NCBI RefSeq assembly: GCF_022803015.1
Contig: NZ_JAFKON010000003.1
Location: 434,001 to 498,000, forward strand
Direction of reading: 5' to 3'
From: Arthrobacter humicola
GTDB taxonomy: Bacteria; Actinomycetota; Actinomycetes; Actinomycetales; Micrococcaceae
DNA length: 64,000 nucleotides
Both the position numbers and the translations under genes were made by a program. The notes under the pieces are model-generated. The model was not told the origin of the DNA and did no database searches. It worked only from the letters and a program-made list of their open reading frames with translations. Positions 33,735 through 39,008 of the stretch are shown piece by piece. Position 1 is the stretch's first letter, and every line of letters starts with the position of its first letter.

Positions 33735-34793
33735 ATGCCTACAGCTACTGCATTGAAAGCGGAAGAAACCTTGATCCACGTCCTGTGGATCAATGCCGGA
33801 CTCAGTTGCGACGGTGACTCCGTGGCCCTGACGGCGGCAACCCAGCCAAGCGTCGAGGAGATAGCCCTTGGGGCGCTTCCCGGACTACCCAAGATTGCCA
33901 TGCACTGGCCGCTGATCGACTTCGAATGCGGCCCGCAGCAAGGCGCCGACGACTTCCTCGAGTGGTTCCGCAAGGCGGACCGCGGCGAGCTGGAGCCGTT
34001 TGTGCTGGTGGTGGAGGGGTCCATCCCGAATGAAAAGCTGCACGCCGCGGGCGGCTACTGGGCGGCCTTCGGCAACAACCTCGACACCGGACAGCCGATC
34101 ACCACCAGCGAGTGGCTGGACCGGCTGGCGCCCAAGGCGACGGCGATCATCGCCGCCGGGACCTGTGCGACCTACGGCGGCATCCATGCCATGGCCGGAA
34201 ACCCCACCGGCGCCATGGGGGTGCCCGACTATCTCGGGTATGACTGGCGCTCCAAAGCCGGGATCCCGATCGTGTGCGTCCCGGGCTGCCCCATCCAGCC
34301 GGACAACCTTTCCGAAACCATGACGTACCTGCTGTATCAGGCCACCGGACAGGCCCCCATGATTCCCCTGGATGAGGCGCTCCGGCCGACCTGGCTGTTT
34401 GGCCAGACGGTGCACGAGGGATGCGACCGCGCGGGGTACTACGAACAGGGCGACTTCGCCACCGAATACGGGTCCCCGAAGTGCATCGTCAAGCTCGGCT
34501 GCTGGGGACCGGTGGTCAAGTGCAACGTGCCCAAACGCGGCTGGATGAACGGAATCGGCGGCTGCCCCAACGTAGGCGGCATCTGCATCGGCTGCACAAT
34601 GCCGGGCTTCCCGGACAAATTCATGCCGTTCATGGACGAACCTCCCGGCGGCAAGCTGTCGACCGCGTCGGTCATGCCGTACGGCAAGACCATCAGGACA
34701 CTGCGGAACATCACGAAGCACACGCTGGACCAGGAACCCCGCTGGCGCAAACCCGGTAATGATCTGCTGACCGGCGCCAAGCGGACCTGGTAG
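33735..34793 (+). CDS. hhyS: [NiFe]-hydrogenase small subunit, group 1h
   Basis: Electron-transfer subunit of the actinobacterial high-affinity uptake hydrogenase. The 352 residues lack a Tat signal and C-terminal membrane helix, so the enzyme is assembled in the cytoplasm. The proximal cluster motif reads SCDGDS (Cys25-Asp-Gly-Asp28): Asp28 replaces the usual fourth Cys, giving the 3Cys/1Asp [4Fe-4S] cluster that characterises O2-tolerant group 1h enzymes. Further ligands appear in GTCATYGG, VPGCPIQPDN, HEGCDRAGYY, KLGCWGPVVKC and IGGCPNVGGICIGC. Strong GAAGGAGGC ribosome site. It precedes the large-subunit gene by 25 bases. Confidence 0.96.
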   Translation: MPTATALKAEETLIHVLWINAGLSCDGDSVALTAATQPSVEEIALGALPGLPKIAMHWPLIDFECGPQQGADDFLEWFRKADRGELEPFVLVVEGSIPNEKLHAAGGYWAAFGNNLDTGQPITTSEWLDRLAPKATAIIAAGTCATYGGIHAMAGNPTGAMGVPDYLGYDWRSKAGIPIVCVPGCPIQPDNLSETMTYLLYQATGQAPMIPLDEALRPTWLFGQTVHEGCDRAGYYEQGDFATEYGSPKCIVKLGCWGPVVKCNVPKRGWMNGIGGCPNVGGICIGCTMPGFPDKFMPFMDEPPGGKLSTASVMPYGKTIRTLRNITKHTLDQEPRWRKPGNDLLTGAKRTW

Positions 34794-34818: not shown

Positions 34819-36612
34819 ATGACTTCGACGATTCCGATGCCCCCGGCGGACGGTACCGCGGGCGAGAACCTGGTGGAGATGGCCTGGGACCCGATCACAA
34901 GGATCGTCGGCAGCCTCGGCATCTACACCAAGGTCGATTTCAAGAACAACCAAGTGGTGGAATGCCACAGCACGTCCTCGATTTTCCGCGGCTATTCCAT
35001 CTTCATGCGCGGCAAGGACCCCCGGGATGCGCACTTCATCACGAGCCGGATCTGCGGAATCTGTGGCGACAACCACGCCACCTGTTCCTGTTACGCGCAG
35101 AACATGGCCTACGCCGTGAAGCCGCCCCACCTGGGCGAATGGATCGTCAACCTGGGCGAGGCCGCCGAGTACATGTTCGACCACAACATCTTCCAGGAGA
35201 ACCTGGTCGGCGTGGACTACTGCGAGAAGATGGTCTCCGAAACCAACCCGTCGGTGCTGGCCAAAGCCGAGAACACGCCGGCCCCGCACGCCGCTGAGCA
35301 CGGCTACCGCACCATCGCGGACATCATGCGCTCGCTGAACCCGTTTACCGGGGAGTTCTACCGCGAGGCGCTGCAAGTGAGCCGGATGACCCGGGAAATG
35401 TTCTGCCTGATGGAGGGCCGGCATGTCCATCCCTCCACGCTTTACCCCGGCGGCGTGGGCACCGTGGCGACGATCCAGCTGATGACGGACTACATCACCA
35501 GGCTCATGCGGTACGTGGAGTTCATGAAGAAGGTCGTGCCGATGCACGATGACCTCTTCGACTTCTTCTATGCGGCCCTGCCCGGGTACGAGCAGGTGGG
35601 GCTGCGGCGCACCCTGCTGGGCTGCTGGGGGTCCTTCCAGGACCCGGAGTTCTGCAATTTCGCCTACAAGGACATGACGGAGTGGGGCCGGAAGATGTTC
35701 GTCACCCCCGGCGTCGTGGTGGACGGCAAACTCGTGACCACGGACTTGGTGCGCATCAACCTGGGGATCCGGATCATGCTGGGCTCGTCCTACTACGAGG
35801 ACTGGGGCGACCAGGAAATGTTCGTCACCCGCGACCCGCTGGGCAACCCGGTGGACCGCCGGCACCCTTGGAACCAGCACACCAACCCGCGGCCGCAGAA
35901 GCGCGACCTCGAGGACAAGTACAGCTGGGTGATGTCACCGCGGTGGAATGACGGCGAAAGCAACCTGGCGCTGGATACCGGCGGCGGCCCGCTGGCCCGG
36001 CTCTGGTCGACCGCCCTTGCCGGCTTCGTCGACACCGGCTACCTCAAGTCAACGGGCAGCAGCGTCCAGATCGAGCTCCCCAAGACTGCGCTGAAGGGCC
36101 CGGTGACCCTGGAATGGAAGATCCCGCAGTGGAGCAACACGCTGGAGCGGAACCGCGCCCGGACCTATTTCCAGGCCTACGCGGCGGCCGCCGCCCTGCA
36201 CTTCGCCGAAAAGGCGCTCGAGGAAATCCGGGCCGGCCGCACCAAGACGTGGGAGTCCTTCGAGGTGCCGGAGGAAGCCATCAGCTGCGGCTTTACCGAA
36301 GCCGTCCGCGGTGTGCTCTCGCACCACATGGTGATCCGCGACGGCAAGATCGCCAACTACCATCCCTATCCGCCGACGCCCTGGAACGCCAGCCCGCGCG
36401 ACTCCGAGGGAACACCGGGCCCGTATGAGGACGCGGTGCAGGGCCAGCCCATCTTCGAGGAGAACGACCGCGATCATTTCAAGGGCATCGACATCATGCG
36501 CACCGTCCGCAGCTTCGACCCCTGCCTGCCGTGCGGCGTCCACATGTATCTCGGCGACGGGCAGACGCTGGACTTGCTGCACTCCCCCACGCAGTCGCTC
36601 ACCGGTGAGTAG
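34819..36612 (+). CDS. hhyL: [NiFe]-hydrogenase large subunit, group 1h
   Basis: Catalytic subunit that oxidises H2, able in this group to use atmospheric concentrations. The 597 residues contain the L1 motif RICGICGDNHATC (Ni ligands Cys79 and Cys82) and L2 motif DPCLPCGVH (Cys569, Cys572, His575). A 22-residue extension after His575 is the part removed by the maturation endopeptidase once Ni is in place; a matching protease gene is at 40632. Preceded by GAGAGGCAATGCA. Electrons probably pass to the respiratory quinone pool via the NifU-Rieske protein downstream. Confidence 0.97.
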   Translation: MTSTIPMPPADGTAGENLVEMAWDPITRIVGSLGIYTKVDFKNNQVVECHSTSSIFRGYSIFMRGKDPRDAHFITSRICGICGDNHATCSCYAQNMAYAVKPPHLGEWIVNLGEAAEYMFDHNIFQENLVGVDYCEKMVSETNPSVLAKAENTPAPHAAEHGYRTIADIMRSLNPFTGEFYREALQVSRMTREMFCLMEGRHVHPSTLYPGGVGTVATIQLMTDYITRLMRYVEFMKKVVPMHDDLFDFFYAALPGYEQVGLRRTLLGCWGSFQDPEFCNFAYKDMTEWGRKMFVTPGVVVDGKLVTTDLVRINLGIRIMLGSSYYEDWGDQEMFVTRDPLGNPVDRRHPWNQHTNPRPQKRDLEDKYSWVMSPRWNDGESNLALDTGGGPLARLWSTALAGFVDTGYLKSTGSSVQIELPKTALKGPVTLEWKIPQWSNTLERNRARTYFQAYAAAAALHFAEKALEEIRAGRTKTWESFEVPEEAISCGFTEAVRGVLSHHMVIRDGKIANYHPYPPTPWNASPRDSEGTPGPYEDAVQGQPIFEENDRDHFKGIDIMRTVRSFDPCLPCGVHMYLGDGQTLDLLHSPTQSLTGE

Positions 36613-36618
36613 CCCGCC

Positions 36619-37593
36619 ATGGACCGGGAGAATCTGTTGGGCTCGGCCGGTGAACGGATCAGTTCCCTCCTGGACGCACTGGGCTCCGGCGGTCCGGTGG
36701 CCCGGGACCGGGCGGAGGAACTGGTCCGGCAGGTGACGGAACTCTACGGTGCCGGGCTGGAGCGGATCCTGCACGTGCTCGATTCGCAGGGTGCGCTCGG
36801 GCCCGGAACGGTTTCCGCCCTCACCTCCGACCCGTTGGTTTCAGGCCTGCTCCTGATCCACGGGCTGCACCCCGTGGACCTGCCCGGTAGGGTCGCCGGT
36901 GCCCTGGACTCGGTCCGGCCCTACCTCGGCTCGCACGGCGGGGATGTGGAACTGCTCGGTATCAGCGAAGAAGGCGTCGTCCGGCTGAGGCTGCTGGGCA
37001 GCTGCCAGGGCTGTCCGTCGTCGTCGGTGACGCTCAAGCTCGCCGTCGAGGACGCGATCGAATCTGCGGCGCCCGAGGTGACCGGCATCGAAGTGGAGGA
37101 GGCGGCTCCCGCCGCCGTTCCCGCCCTCATCCCGGTCGGCGCCCTGCGCTCGCGGCTGGACGGGCTGGGCGGCCCGCCCGACGGCGGCATACGCAGTGCC
37201 GCGCCGGACTGGGCGGTCCCCGACGCCGGCACGCCGGCCTCAGGCACGTGGCAGGCGGTCCCGGCCCTCGCTGAGCTGGAGTCCGGAGCCGTGGCGGGCT
37301 TCCTGGTGGCGGGCGTGGAGGTGCTCACGTGCCGGATCGGTCCGGACGTCTACGCGTTTGTGGACCGGTGCCCGCGGTGCACCCACTCCATGCCGGGCGC
37401 CTCGCTGCAGCGGGCGCTGGCTGCCCCGGTGGGCGGGGGGCTGTTGCGCTGCCCGCACTGCCGCAGCCACTTCGACGTCCGGAAGGCCGGGGCCTGTCTG
37501 GAGGACAAGGCGCTGCATCTTGATCCCCTCCCGCTGCTGCTCCGCGACGGGGTTCCCTCCGTGGCCGTCCCCACCACCGCGGACCCGCTGTGA
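36619..37593 (+). CDS. NifU-like/Rieske-like iron-sulfur fusion protein
   Basis: Predicted electron-relay or maturation protein of 324 residues. Residues about 94-160 form a NifU C-terminal domain with CQGCPSSSVTLK (C129xxC132). Residues about 212-320 form a Rieske-like [2Fe-2S] domain in which the paired motifs read CPRCTH (251-256) and CPHCRSH (278-284), each with an extra Cys compared with the usual CxH and CxxH. Related proteins (HhyE/HucE type) are required for H2 oxidation in mycobacteria and are proposed to link the hydrogenase to the quinone pool. Starts 6 bases after hhyL. Confidence 0.88.
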   Translation: MDRENLLGSAGERISSLLDALGSGGPVARDRAEELVRQVTELYGAGLERILHVLDSQGALGPGTVSALTSDPLVSGLLLIHGLHPVDLPGRVAGALDSVRPYLGSHGGDVELLGISEEGVVRLRLLGSCQGCPSSSVTLKLAVEDAIESAAPEVTGIEVEEAAPAAVPALIPVGALRSRLDGLGGPPDGGIRSAAPDWAVPDAGTPASGTWQAVPALAELESGAVAGFLVAGVEVLTCRIGPDVYAFVDRCPRCTHSMPGASLQRALAAPVGGGLLRCPHCRSHFDVRKAGACLEDKALHLDPLPLLLRDGVPSVAVPTTADPL

Positions 37594-37636
37594 GATGCAG
37601 GCACATGAATTCCGCGGCACGGGAACGGAGCAGGGC

Positions 37637-38374
37637 ATGACGGCGACGCCGGGAACCGGAAGTCAGCCGGCCGGCAGCGCCGGAAACAACAGCGCCGGAA
37701 ACAACAGCGCCGGAAACAGCGCGTCGGCGCTCGCCGTGCTCCGCCGGATAGCGTCCACCCGCCCGGCCCAGCCTGCCGGCGAGCGCTGCGAGATGTGCGC
37801 GGAGCCCATCCCGGACGCCCACCAGCACGTGGTGGATCTGGAGAACCGCTCCCTGCTGTGCACGTGCCGGCCCTGCTATCTGCTGTTCACGGACTCGTCG
37901 GCCCATCTGCGTTACCGCTCCGTCCCTGACCGCTACCTCTCGTTCGAGCCCTTCGAGCTCGGACAGGCCCAGTGGGACGAGCTGGAAATCCCGGTGGGGC
38001 TGGCATTCTTCTTCTTCAACTCGGCTCTTGGCCGGACGGCCGCTTTCTACCCGAGCCCCGCGGGCGCCACGGAGTCCGAACTTCCCCTGGCTGCCTGGGC
38101 GTCGGTCGAGGCGGCCAACCCGGCCATCACCGCGCTCGCCCCCGACACGGAAGCCCTGCTGATCCGCGCCCCCGGCCCCGACCGGGGCCGGGCGGACTGC
38201 CACCTTGTCCCCATCGATGCGTGCTACGAGCTAGTGGGCCGCCTGCGGCGGGTATGGAAGGGCTTCGACGGCGGCCAGGAGTCCCGCCAGGAGCTCGCGG
38301 GATTCTTCGACCGGATCAGCCGCCGCAGCAGGCCGGGCGCCCCCGCGGCAGATCTGGAGGGACGCCATGGTTGA
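37637..38374 (+). CDS. DUF5947-family hydrogenase-associated protein
   Basis: Uncharacterised 245-residue protein found beside group 1h hydrogenases. After a Gly/Asn/Ser-rich N terminus comes a probable metal site, CEMCAEPIPDAHQHV and LLCTCRPC (Cys51, Cys54, His62/64, Cys75, Cys77, Cys80). A soluble alpha/beta region (YLSFEPFELGQAQWDEL, HLVPIDACYELVGRLRR) follows. The ATG at 37637 has GGAG at correct spacing; an ATG at 37595, right after the preceding stop, is the alternative. It overlaps the next gene by 8 bases. A role in assembly or electron transfer is inference from context. Confidence 0.8.
   Translation: MTATPGTGSQPAGSAGNNSAGNNSAGNSASALAVLRRIASTRPAQPAGERCEMCAEPIPDAHQHVVDLENRSLLCTCRPCYLLFTDSSAHLRYRSVPDRYLSFEPFELGQAQWDELEIPVGLAFFFFNSALGRTAAFYPSPAGATESELPLAAWASVEAANPAITALAPDTEALLIRAPGPDRGRADCHLVPIDACYELVGRLRRVWKGFDGGQESRQELAGFFDRISRRSRPGAPAADLEGRHG
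37676..37722 (+). repeat. three 15-bp tandem repeats in the DUF5947 gene
   Basis: AGCGCCGGAAACAAC is repeated at a 15-base period (third copy imperfect) and encodes the NNSAG-type repeats near the N terminus. Probably slippage in a disordered linker. Confidence 0.75.
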
Positions 38375-39008
38375 GCTCGATTTCAGTGTGCTGGACATCG
38401 CCCCGGAGCCCTACGCGGCCGCACCCCAGCTGACCGCCCGCCTGCGGATCCAGGAGAAAAGCGGCGCCGCCGTCCATGCCATGGCCCTCCGGTGCCAGGT
38501 GCGGATCCTGGCCCAGCGCCGCGGCTACGACGCCGACGAGGAAACCGGGCTGCTGGAACTCTTCGGCACCCGCGGACGGTGGCCCACCACGCTCAAGCCC
38601 TTCATCTGGATGCACAGCGGCATCCTGGTCCAGGGATTTGCGGACAGTGCCGACGTTGACCTGCCGCTGCCCTGCACGTTCGACTTCGACGTCGCAGCGG
38701 CAAAATACCTGAACTCCCTGCGGGACGGGACGGTCCCGCTGGAGTTCCTCTTCTCCGGGACGGTCTTCACGCGCGGCGCGGCGGGCTTCGGCGTCGAGCA
38801 GATTCCCTGGGACCGGGAAACGCGGTACGCCCTGCCCGTGGCGGCCTGGCGGTCGCTGATGGACGCATTCTTCCCGAACCAGGGATGGATCCGCCTGGAC
38901 CGCGACGTCCTCGCGGCCCTGGCCAGGTACAAGGCGGTCCACGGCTTGATTTCCTGGGAGGCCGCCATCGAGGGGCTGCTGGCCGGGGCGGGTGACCCGG
39001 TGCCGTGA
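38367..39008 (+). CDS. DUF6084-family hydrogenase-associated protein
   Basis: Uncharacterised 213-residue soluble protein, probably beta-rich, beginning MVELDFSVLDIAPEPYAAAP. It has no signal peptide, membrane helix or Cys cluster. Conserved-looking aromatic blocks include KPFIWMHSGILVQGF, PCTFDFDVAAAKY and YALPVAAWRSLMDAFFPNQG. It overlaps its upstream neighbour by 8 bases and its downstream neighbour by four (GTGA), so tight co-translation with the hydrogenase accessory proteins is likely. Its job is unknown; a structural partner or scaffold role is a guess. Confidence 0.75.
   Translation: MVELDFSVLDIAPEPYAAAPQLTARLRIQEKSGAAVHAMALRCQVRILAQRRGYDADEETGLLELFGTRGRWPTTLKPFIWMHSGILVQGFADSADVDLPLPCTFDFDVAAAKYLNSLRDGTVPLEFLFSGTVFTRGAAGFGVEQIPWDRETRYALPVAAWRSLMDAFFPNQGWIRLDRDVLAALARYKAVHGLISWEAAIEGLLAGAGDPVP

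Follow-up and report, generated by a model that had tools for sequence, protein, structure and literature searches.

The hhyE locus and its product

The window, the 64,000-nucleotide stretch of Arthrobacter humicola DNA analysed here, carries a group 1h [NiFe]-hydrogenase operon whose genes run in the order hhyS, hhyL, hhyE. The hhyE open reading frame adjoins the 3' side of hhyL and is the single match to hhyE in a search of the genome; it is a real gene and encodes the HhyE protein of this operon. On its own 3' side lie genes for a DUF5947 and a DUF6084 protein, followed by those for a 504-aa protein and a maturation protease. The features of the locus are:

33735..34793, + strand: hhyS, hydrogenase small subunit (Pfam PF14720, PF01058)
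34819..36612, + strand: hhyL, group 1h-type large subunit (PF00374; the large-subunit tree places it in one clade with C. necator AH)
36619..37593, + strand: hhyE, encoding HhyE, 324 aa (open reading frame, Pfam, homologues, literature family)
36625..36858, + strand: N-terminal helical domain of HhyE, residues 3-80 (AlphaFold helices 3-22, 26-56, 62-70 and 72-80)
36895..37089, + strand: NifU-like domain, residues 93-157 (PF01106, E = 4.4e-22; match to 2z51)
37003..37014, + strand: NifU CxxC, C129 and C132 (sequence)
37240..37572, + strand: Rieske-ferredoxin-fold domain, residues 208-318 (fold match to 2qpz; profile match)
37369..37380, + strand: first knuckle, CPRC, with C251 (canonical Rieske cysteine) and C254 (His+1) (alignments)
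37450..37461, + strand: second knuckle, CPHC, with C278 (canonical Rieske cysteine) and C281 (histidine position) (alignments)
37595..38374, + strand: DUF5947 protein with a CxxC-HxH-CxCxxC motif (PF19372, E = 3.4e-73)
38367..39008, + strand: DUF6084 protein (PF19562)

As defined by Islam 2019 (PMC6883350), HhyE proteins are encoded beside group 1h hydrogenase subunits and combine a NifU CxxC with two C-terminal CxxC motifs, all of which are found in the window protein. Its gene neighbourhood and both sets of motifs likewise agree with what is described there for M. smegmatis HhyE (MSMEG_2718). The hallmarks of the related HucE proteins, a CxH...CxxH ligand set and a group 2a partner, are absent from it. 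The NifU-like domain scores 78.4 bits against PF01106 (cut-off 27) and contains C129 and C132, and the match to the Rieske family PF00355 falls below the gathering score (16.9 against 20.3 bits). Further cysteines and histidines form two groups, C251/C254/H256 and C278/H280/C281/H284. An initial sequence-only reading had identified the protein as a NifU-Rieske fusion of the HhyE type, and Pfam, fold comparison and operon context bear this out.

Ancestry and ligand register of the C-terminal domain

The structure of HhyE was predicted with AlphaFold from an alignment of 18 sequences, yielding metal-free models. The pLDDT is about 95 across most of residues 211-310, with lower values of 71 in 261-270 and 84 in 271-280. 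Residues 85-162 of the model match the Nfu protein 2z51 (Z 11.4, rmsd 2.1, 76 residues), and residues 208-318 match the Rieske ferredoxin 2qpz (Z 14.5, rmsd 2.1, 102 residues). At the sequence level, a profile built from 26 domains with four cysteine ligands (Cys4) retrieved dioxygenase Rieske ferredoxins from the PDB with an E-value of 2.9e-9, and one single HHalign comparison of the Cys4 and HucE domains gave 98.9% (E = 1.7e-17). Among the matches listed, the best fold and profile matches of the HhyE C-terminal domain are Rieske proteins, a ranking that does not exclude rubredoxin. Together, the predicted fold and the profile comparisons show the C-terminal part of HhyE to be homologous to Rieske ferredoxins, which makes it a predicted true Rieske-ferredoxin domain with a Cys4 site.

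Rieske ferredoxins of dioxygenases bind a [2Fe-2S] cluster with two histidine ligands. The structures 2qpz, 1vck and 3gce belong to this class and share fold and sequence homology with the HhyE domain, but they differ from it in their two histidines and [2Fe-2S] cluster, where HhyE has a Cys4 ligand set. Five Rieske-ferredoxin alignments among the matches listed are free of gaps both within and between the cluster loops. In this register, C251 and C278 correspond to the canonical cysteines, R253 to the first histidine, C254 to the residue following it (His+1) and C281 to the second histidine. HhyE therefore lacks the Rieske CxH...CxxH set; it reads CxxC...CxxC, has histidine at neither ligand position and displays two CxxC knuckles of the rubredoxin type. 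The sequence-only reading had singled out C251 and C278 as two extra cysteines, a parsing that the gap-free loop alignments invert, as both are the ordinary Rieske cysteines.

Ligand sets and site loss across HhyE and HucE proteins

We surveyed 185 loci, comprising the window, 80 contigs from near-relative genomes, four plasmid records and 100 further genome loci, and encoding 183 distinct HhyE or HucE proteins (L050 and L123, as well as L102 and L159, are duplicates). All are from Actinomycetota, the phylum of the window, except the four plasmids. The 80 contigs were found through a NifU peptide scan, so this set may favour intact NifU domains. The C-terminal ligand set is Cys4 in 120 loci, Cys2His2 in 16 and of another kind in 9, and 40 proteins have no C-terminal domain; L107, an "other" locus with an unreadable run of N in the domain, was left out of the ligand counts. 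C251 and C278 are thus conserved among homologues, and all four cysteines occur together in those 120 of the 185 loci; the outcome named beforehand as speaking against the earlier proposal, extra cysteines that vary among homologues, is not what we found. Given this conservation, the cysteines are not a chance feature, and what they form is a pair of CxxC motifs, not a Rieske motif supplemented by two residues.

The distance from C251 to C278 is 27 residues in 85 of the 120 Cys4 rows, the kind found in the window, and 19 in 25 of them, while the same two cysteines in Cys2His2 rows lie 21 (11/16) or 19 (5/16) residues apart. Hence, the length between the loops varies and the loops themselves align. 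The additional stretch of the 27-residue kind (window 37393-37449) coincides with the segment of the domain that is modelled at lower confidence.

The histidines near the knuckles are distributed differently from the cysteines. Histidine occupies position 256 in 12/120 Cys4 rows, position 284 in 88/120 (all 79 near relatives, 8 of the 40 further loci outside that set, and the window) and position 300 in 110/120; at position 280, Gly, Thr, Ser and Arg predominate. These counts bear on the cluster that the sequence-only reading proposed, a Rieske-like cluster with mixed Cys/His ligation in which C254-T-H256 served as CxH, C281-R-S-H284 as CxxH and the remaining cysteines were additions. The motifs on which it was built (CPRCTH, CPHCRSH and the NifU CxxC) are all present, and the retention of H284 throughout the near relatives speaks for it. 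However, neither H256 nor H284 coincides with a histidine position of the Rieske motif or shows general conservation, and we rejected mixed ligation as very improbable. What stands of the suggestion of an unusual cluster is that, with these cysteines, a normal His2Cys2 Rieske cluster is unlikely.

HucE proteins of group 2a hydrogenases align with HhyE along the chain, C-terminal domain included, but differ in their ligands, which are CxH and CxxH in 16/16 rows (L112, L113, L114, L141, L142, L144-L146, L148, L169-L175) as opposed to the CxxC/CxxC of HhyE. The second HucE motif, CxxH in all 16 rows here, differs from the CxxC printed in the main text of Islam 2019, where the HucE motif is given as CxH(x15-18)CxxC (PMC6883350). 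In three HucE proteins (L173, L174 and L175), the Rieske ligands are canonical and the second NifU cysteine is gone (C-R).

The ligand sets split cleanly by hydrogenase type. With group labels assigned by score, comparing the window and C. necator large subunits against those of Thermus, Mesorhizobium and Sulfobacillus rather than by a curated classifier, the nearest large subunit is of group 1h for 118/118 Cys4 proteins (116 distinct; three of the 118 pairings rest on large-subunit fragments) and of group 2a for 13/13 Cys2His2 proteins. Two further Cys4 and three further Cys2His2 loci have no large subunit in reach. Six "other" rows were also labelled 1h by the script, at 412-534 bits compared with more than 600 for all Cys4 rows except three; on the large-subunit tree they form a divergent clade that is sister to 1h, and we treated them as a separate group. 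Six loci beside this divergent [NiFe]-hydrogenase clade (L147, L149-L153; L154 and L155 were also noted) display a third NifU-Rieske ligand set, in which the first-loop histidine is missing (CPPGSxL or CPVDG) and the second loop reads CPWHGC or CPWHNC.

Truncated HhyE proteins, which lack the C-terminal domain, retain the N-terminal part, helical domain included; for most rows, the profile match begins between positions 1 and 11 of 300. An intact NifU CxxC is present in 118/118 Cys4 rows with a group 1h large subunit and, outside the 80-contig set, in 39/40 Cys4 loci, the remaining one being a partial alignment. The motif is gone from 29 of 32 truncated HhyE proteins beside 1h enzymes (26 truncated rows beside full-scoring 1h subunits, minus L178, plus L177, plus six added rows), and the reverse case was never seen. 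The NifU CxxC is thus lost only in proteins without a Cys4 domain. L178, which has the CxxC, was left out of the truncation counts, as its sequence ends at the contig end just inside the domain. The six truncated tree rows from extra genomes all lack the CxxC and add no new independent loss. An example of a protein that lacks both the C-terminal domain and the NifU CxxC is the 192-aa HhyE of C. necator H16 (L111:7968-8546).

The truncated proteins that keep the CxxC are L176, L177 and L179. L177 is an ordinary truncation; its CxxC is intact, a DUF5947 gene lies directly 3', and the neighbouring 1h enzyme is fragmentary. In L176 (9500-10414), the HhyE frame leads straight into DUF6084 where the C-terminal domain begins, as a result of either a deletion or a misassembly. 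On the large-subunit tree that includes both, the domain changes 8 times and the CxxC 5 times. Where branches are supported, independent pairs change in the same direction in 3-4 of 6 cases and never in opposite directions (p = 0.125), as compared with 5/6 (p = 0.0625) without L176 and L177, so counting these two proteins weakens the link between the sites. The link between Cys4 domain and CxxC is accordingly one-directional in our data and not significant on the tree (p = 0.125). On the tree, a Cys4 protein (L137) is closely related to L177, so that the domain seems to be lost first and the CxxC later. In the divergent clade, truncated proteins keep the CxxC (7/7, L177 not counted), and the erosion of this motif is therefore observed only in group 1h proper. 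We also considered whether the lost domain persists as a separate second ORF, but a domain profile run across the 40 loci returned just two other Rieske-type ORFs (L184 and L191), and this possibility was rejected.

Several cysteines of the hydrogenase subunits also differ by HhyE type, in comparisons that, like those of DUF5947 below, leave out L107, L176, L177 and L178. HhyL C91 (in ATCSC) occurs in 95/115 Cys4 rows versus 1/24 rows with truncated HhyE, HhyS C65 in 88/108 versus 8/23, and HhyS C181 (in CVPGC) in 95/108 versus 9/23; these differences are probably a lineage effect. The seven HhyS cysteines from C230 onward are present in all rows of both kinds (108/108 and 23/23).

Metal site and role of HhyE

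The closest guide to the metal site is an engineered protein. In the Sulfolobus Rieske protein ARF, the triple change H44I/K45C/H64C produced a mononuclear Fe(Cys)4 site (Iwasaki review, PMC2946596). HhyE has the same register, with a residue other than histidine at the first ligand position, cysteine at the next and cysteine in place of the second histidine, so that the four ligand positions in the Rieske scaffold are the same, although the ARF mutant is a man-made single domain and HhyE is natural and fused to NifU. Mainly on the basis of this match, a mononuclear site is predicted for HhyE, which by analogy most likely holds one tetrathiolate metal, iron or zinc, and not a Rieske [2Fe-2S] cluster.

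Counting against a mononuclear site, a set of four cysteines can also carry a [2Fe-2S] cluster, the kind for which this fold is made, and the single change H64C gave ARF a low-potential 3Cys-1His [2Fe-2S] cluster (PMC2946596). In the same work, however, it was the CxxC register in the first loop that gave the mononuclear site, and the combination of CxC with CxxC (H44C/H64C) largely failed, and an all-cysteine low-potential [2Fe-2S] cluster inside the Rieske fold appears unlikely to us. Zinc could instead have a structural role, merely stabilizing a Rieske shell kept for docking; this possibility overlaps our preferred explanation in the ligand set, not in the role. It would fit the description of the mononuclear ARF sites as Fe/Zn (PMC2946596) and the weak, sub-threshold zinc-ribbon profile matches near the second CxxC. 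We nevertheless regard a structural zinc site as doubtful, since the NifU CxxC is lost only in the absence of the domain, a hint at a linked function with which zinc would be compatible.

The cysteine pattern itself is not new, as the two C-terminal CxxC motifs have been in print since 2019 (PMC6883350); there, the HhyE pairs are called rubredoxin-like, and a Rieske signature is reserved for HucE. We found no description of the HhyE domain as a ligand-swapped Rieske domain in the open-access papers searched. As far as our literature searches reach, the Rieske ancestry and register, the match of this register to the engineered rubredoxin-like site, the clean split by hydrogenase type and the loss of the NifU cysteines only without the Cys4 domain are new.

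Genetic data on HhyE come from M. smegmatis, where hhyE is needed for Hhy activity: its deletion abolished activity, and the Hhy band did not appear even with the artificial acceptor NBT (Islam 2019, PMC6883350). Native gels in the same study showed HhyE co-localizing with HhyL and HhyS, an observation compatible with either a subunit or a maturase. The related enzyme Huc was purified as HucL, HucS and HucM, the main text making no mention of HucE; it reduces the menaquinone analogue menadione as well as NBT and has menaquinone bound at HucS (PMC10017518). As Huc belongs to another hydrogenase group, Hhy need not share direct menaquinone reduction. A 2023 review states that certain hydrogenases, Huc included, require additional assembly or maturation proteins, and cites three works for this, Islam 2019 among them (PMC10657181).

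These data inform the choice between two roles. Islam 2019 favoured an electron relay on five lines of argument, including the native-gel co-localization and the lack of a known electron-transfer subunit (PMC6883350). HhyE would then be the electron-accepting subunit, with electrons passing from the distal cluster of HhyS to a NifU-bound cluster, on to the Cys4 site and finally to menaquinone; the co-occurrence of both metal sites in all 118 Cys4 proteins with a 1h enzyme agrees with such a path. On the other hand, NBT did not rescue the deletion, purified Huc, the sister enzyme, contains HucL, HucS and HucM with menaquinone at HucS, and most truncated HhyE proteins beside 1h enzymes (29/32) have neither metal site, even though DUF5947, wherever its gene was found in truncated-HhyE loci, keeps its motif (25/25). 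Relay by HhyE, also entertained in the sequence-only reading, is weakened by these observations and seems an unlikely role. Maturation is favoured by the NBT result, the composition of Huc, the statement of the review and the presence of a NifU domain, and we judge it the probable role of the protein.

A comparable protein is a rubredoxin-related hydrogenase maturation protein of R. eutropha, which we take to be HoxR/HupI. As proposed for HhyE, this protein, cited in PMC6883350, combines a rubredoxin-type site with a link to hydrogenases and a maturation role; the difference lies in the fold, as the HhyE domain matches Rieske ferredoxins. Our best explanation, to which as a whole we assign a probability of about 0.5, is that HhyE is a three-part accessory protein of the group 1h [NiFe]-hydrogenase, which would serve Fe-S maturation of hydrogenase specifically and carry a rubredoxin-like site occupied by Fe or Zn. 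The Cys4 site would cooperate with the NifU CxxC, and their shared task would most likely be Fe-S cluster delivery, repair or reductive assembly for the small subunit of the hydrogenase; the helical N-terminus may bind the hydrogenase.

We considered whether a metal-bearing HhyE goes with high affinity for H2. The C. necator AH, whose HhyE is metal-free, fits such a link: it is reported to have been purified and to be of low affinity, with a Km of 3.6 uM and no atmospheric uptake. Methylacidiphilum does not: M. fumariolicum SolV oxidises subatmospheric H2, and Methylacidiphilum species are reported to be without HhyE (Islam 2019, PMC6883350). We therefore do not claim it.

The DUF5947 gene was found in 119/120 Cys4 loci, with the CxxC-HxH-CxCxxC motif in 118/119, as well as in 24/24 truncated 1h loci and one truncated locus without a large subunit, with the motif in all 25; it was found in 0/16 Cys2His2 and 0/8 "other" loci. 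A Foldseek search of the PDB with the DUF5947 model (mean pLDDT 92.9) gave no match at E <= 0.001. As this Cys/His motif survives in lineages with metal-free HhyE, DUF5947 would be a better candidate electron acceptor than HhyE. Joining these lines, we tentatively propose a natural conversion of a Rieske to a rubredoxin-like site, in which the first ligand would have shifted one residue past the histidine and become cysteine, and the second histidine would have been replaced by cysteine. The NifU domain and the Cys4 site may constitute one Fe-S assembly and redox module of group 1h hydrogenases, which several lineages would have shed, the Cys4 domain first and the NifU cysteines after it, leaving a metal-free HhyE, with DUF5947 as the likelier acceptor.

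If this is true, nature arrived at the ligand changes introduced by engineering in 2005, and a natural route exists between two textbook classes of iron-sulphur proteins. The result names residues to change and predicts a metal site, and natural controls are at hand in HucE with Cys2His2, HhyE with Cys4 and truncated HhyE without a site. It also singles out DUF5947 as carrying a metal-type motif kept by 1h operons. For the biological sink of atmospheric hydrogen, these findings bear on the electron exit route of the group 1h hydrogenase and on cluster insertion into it.
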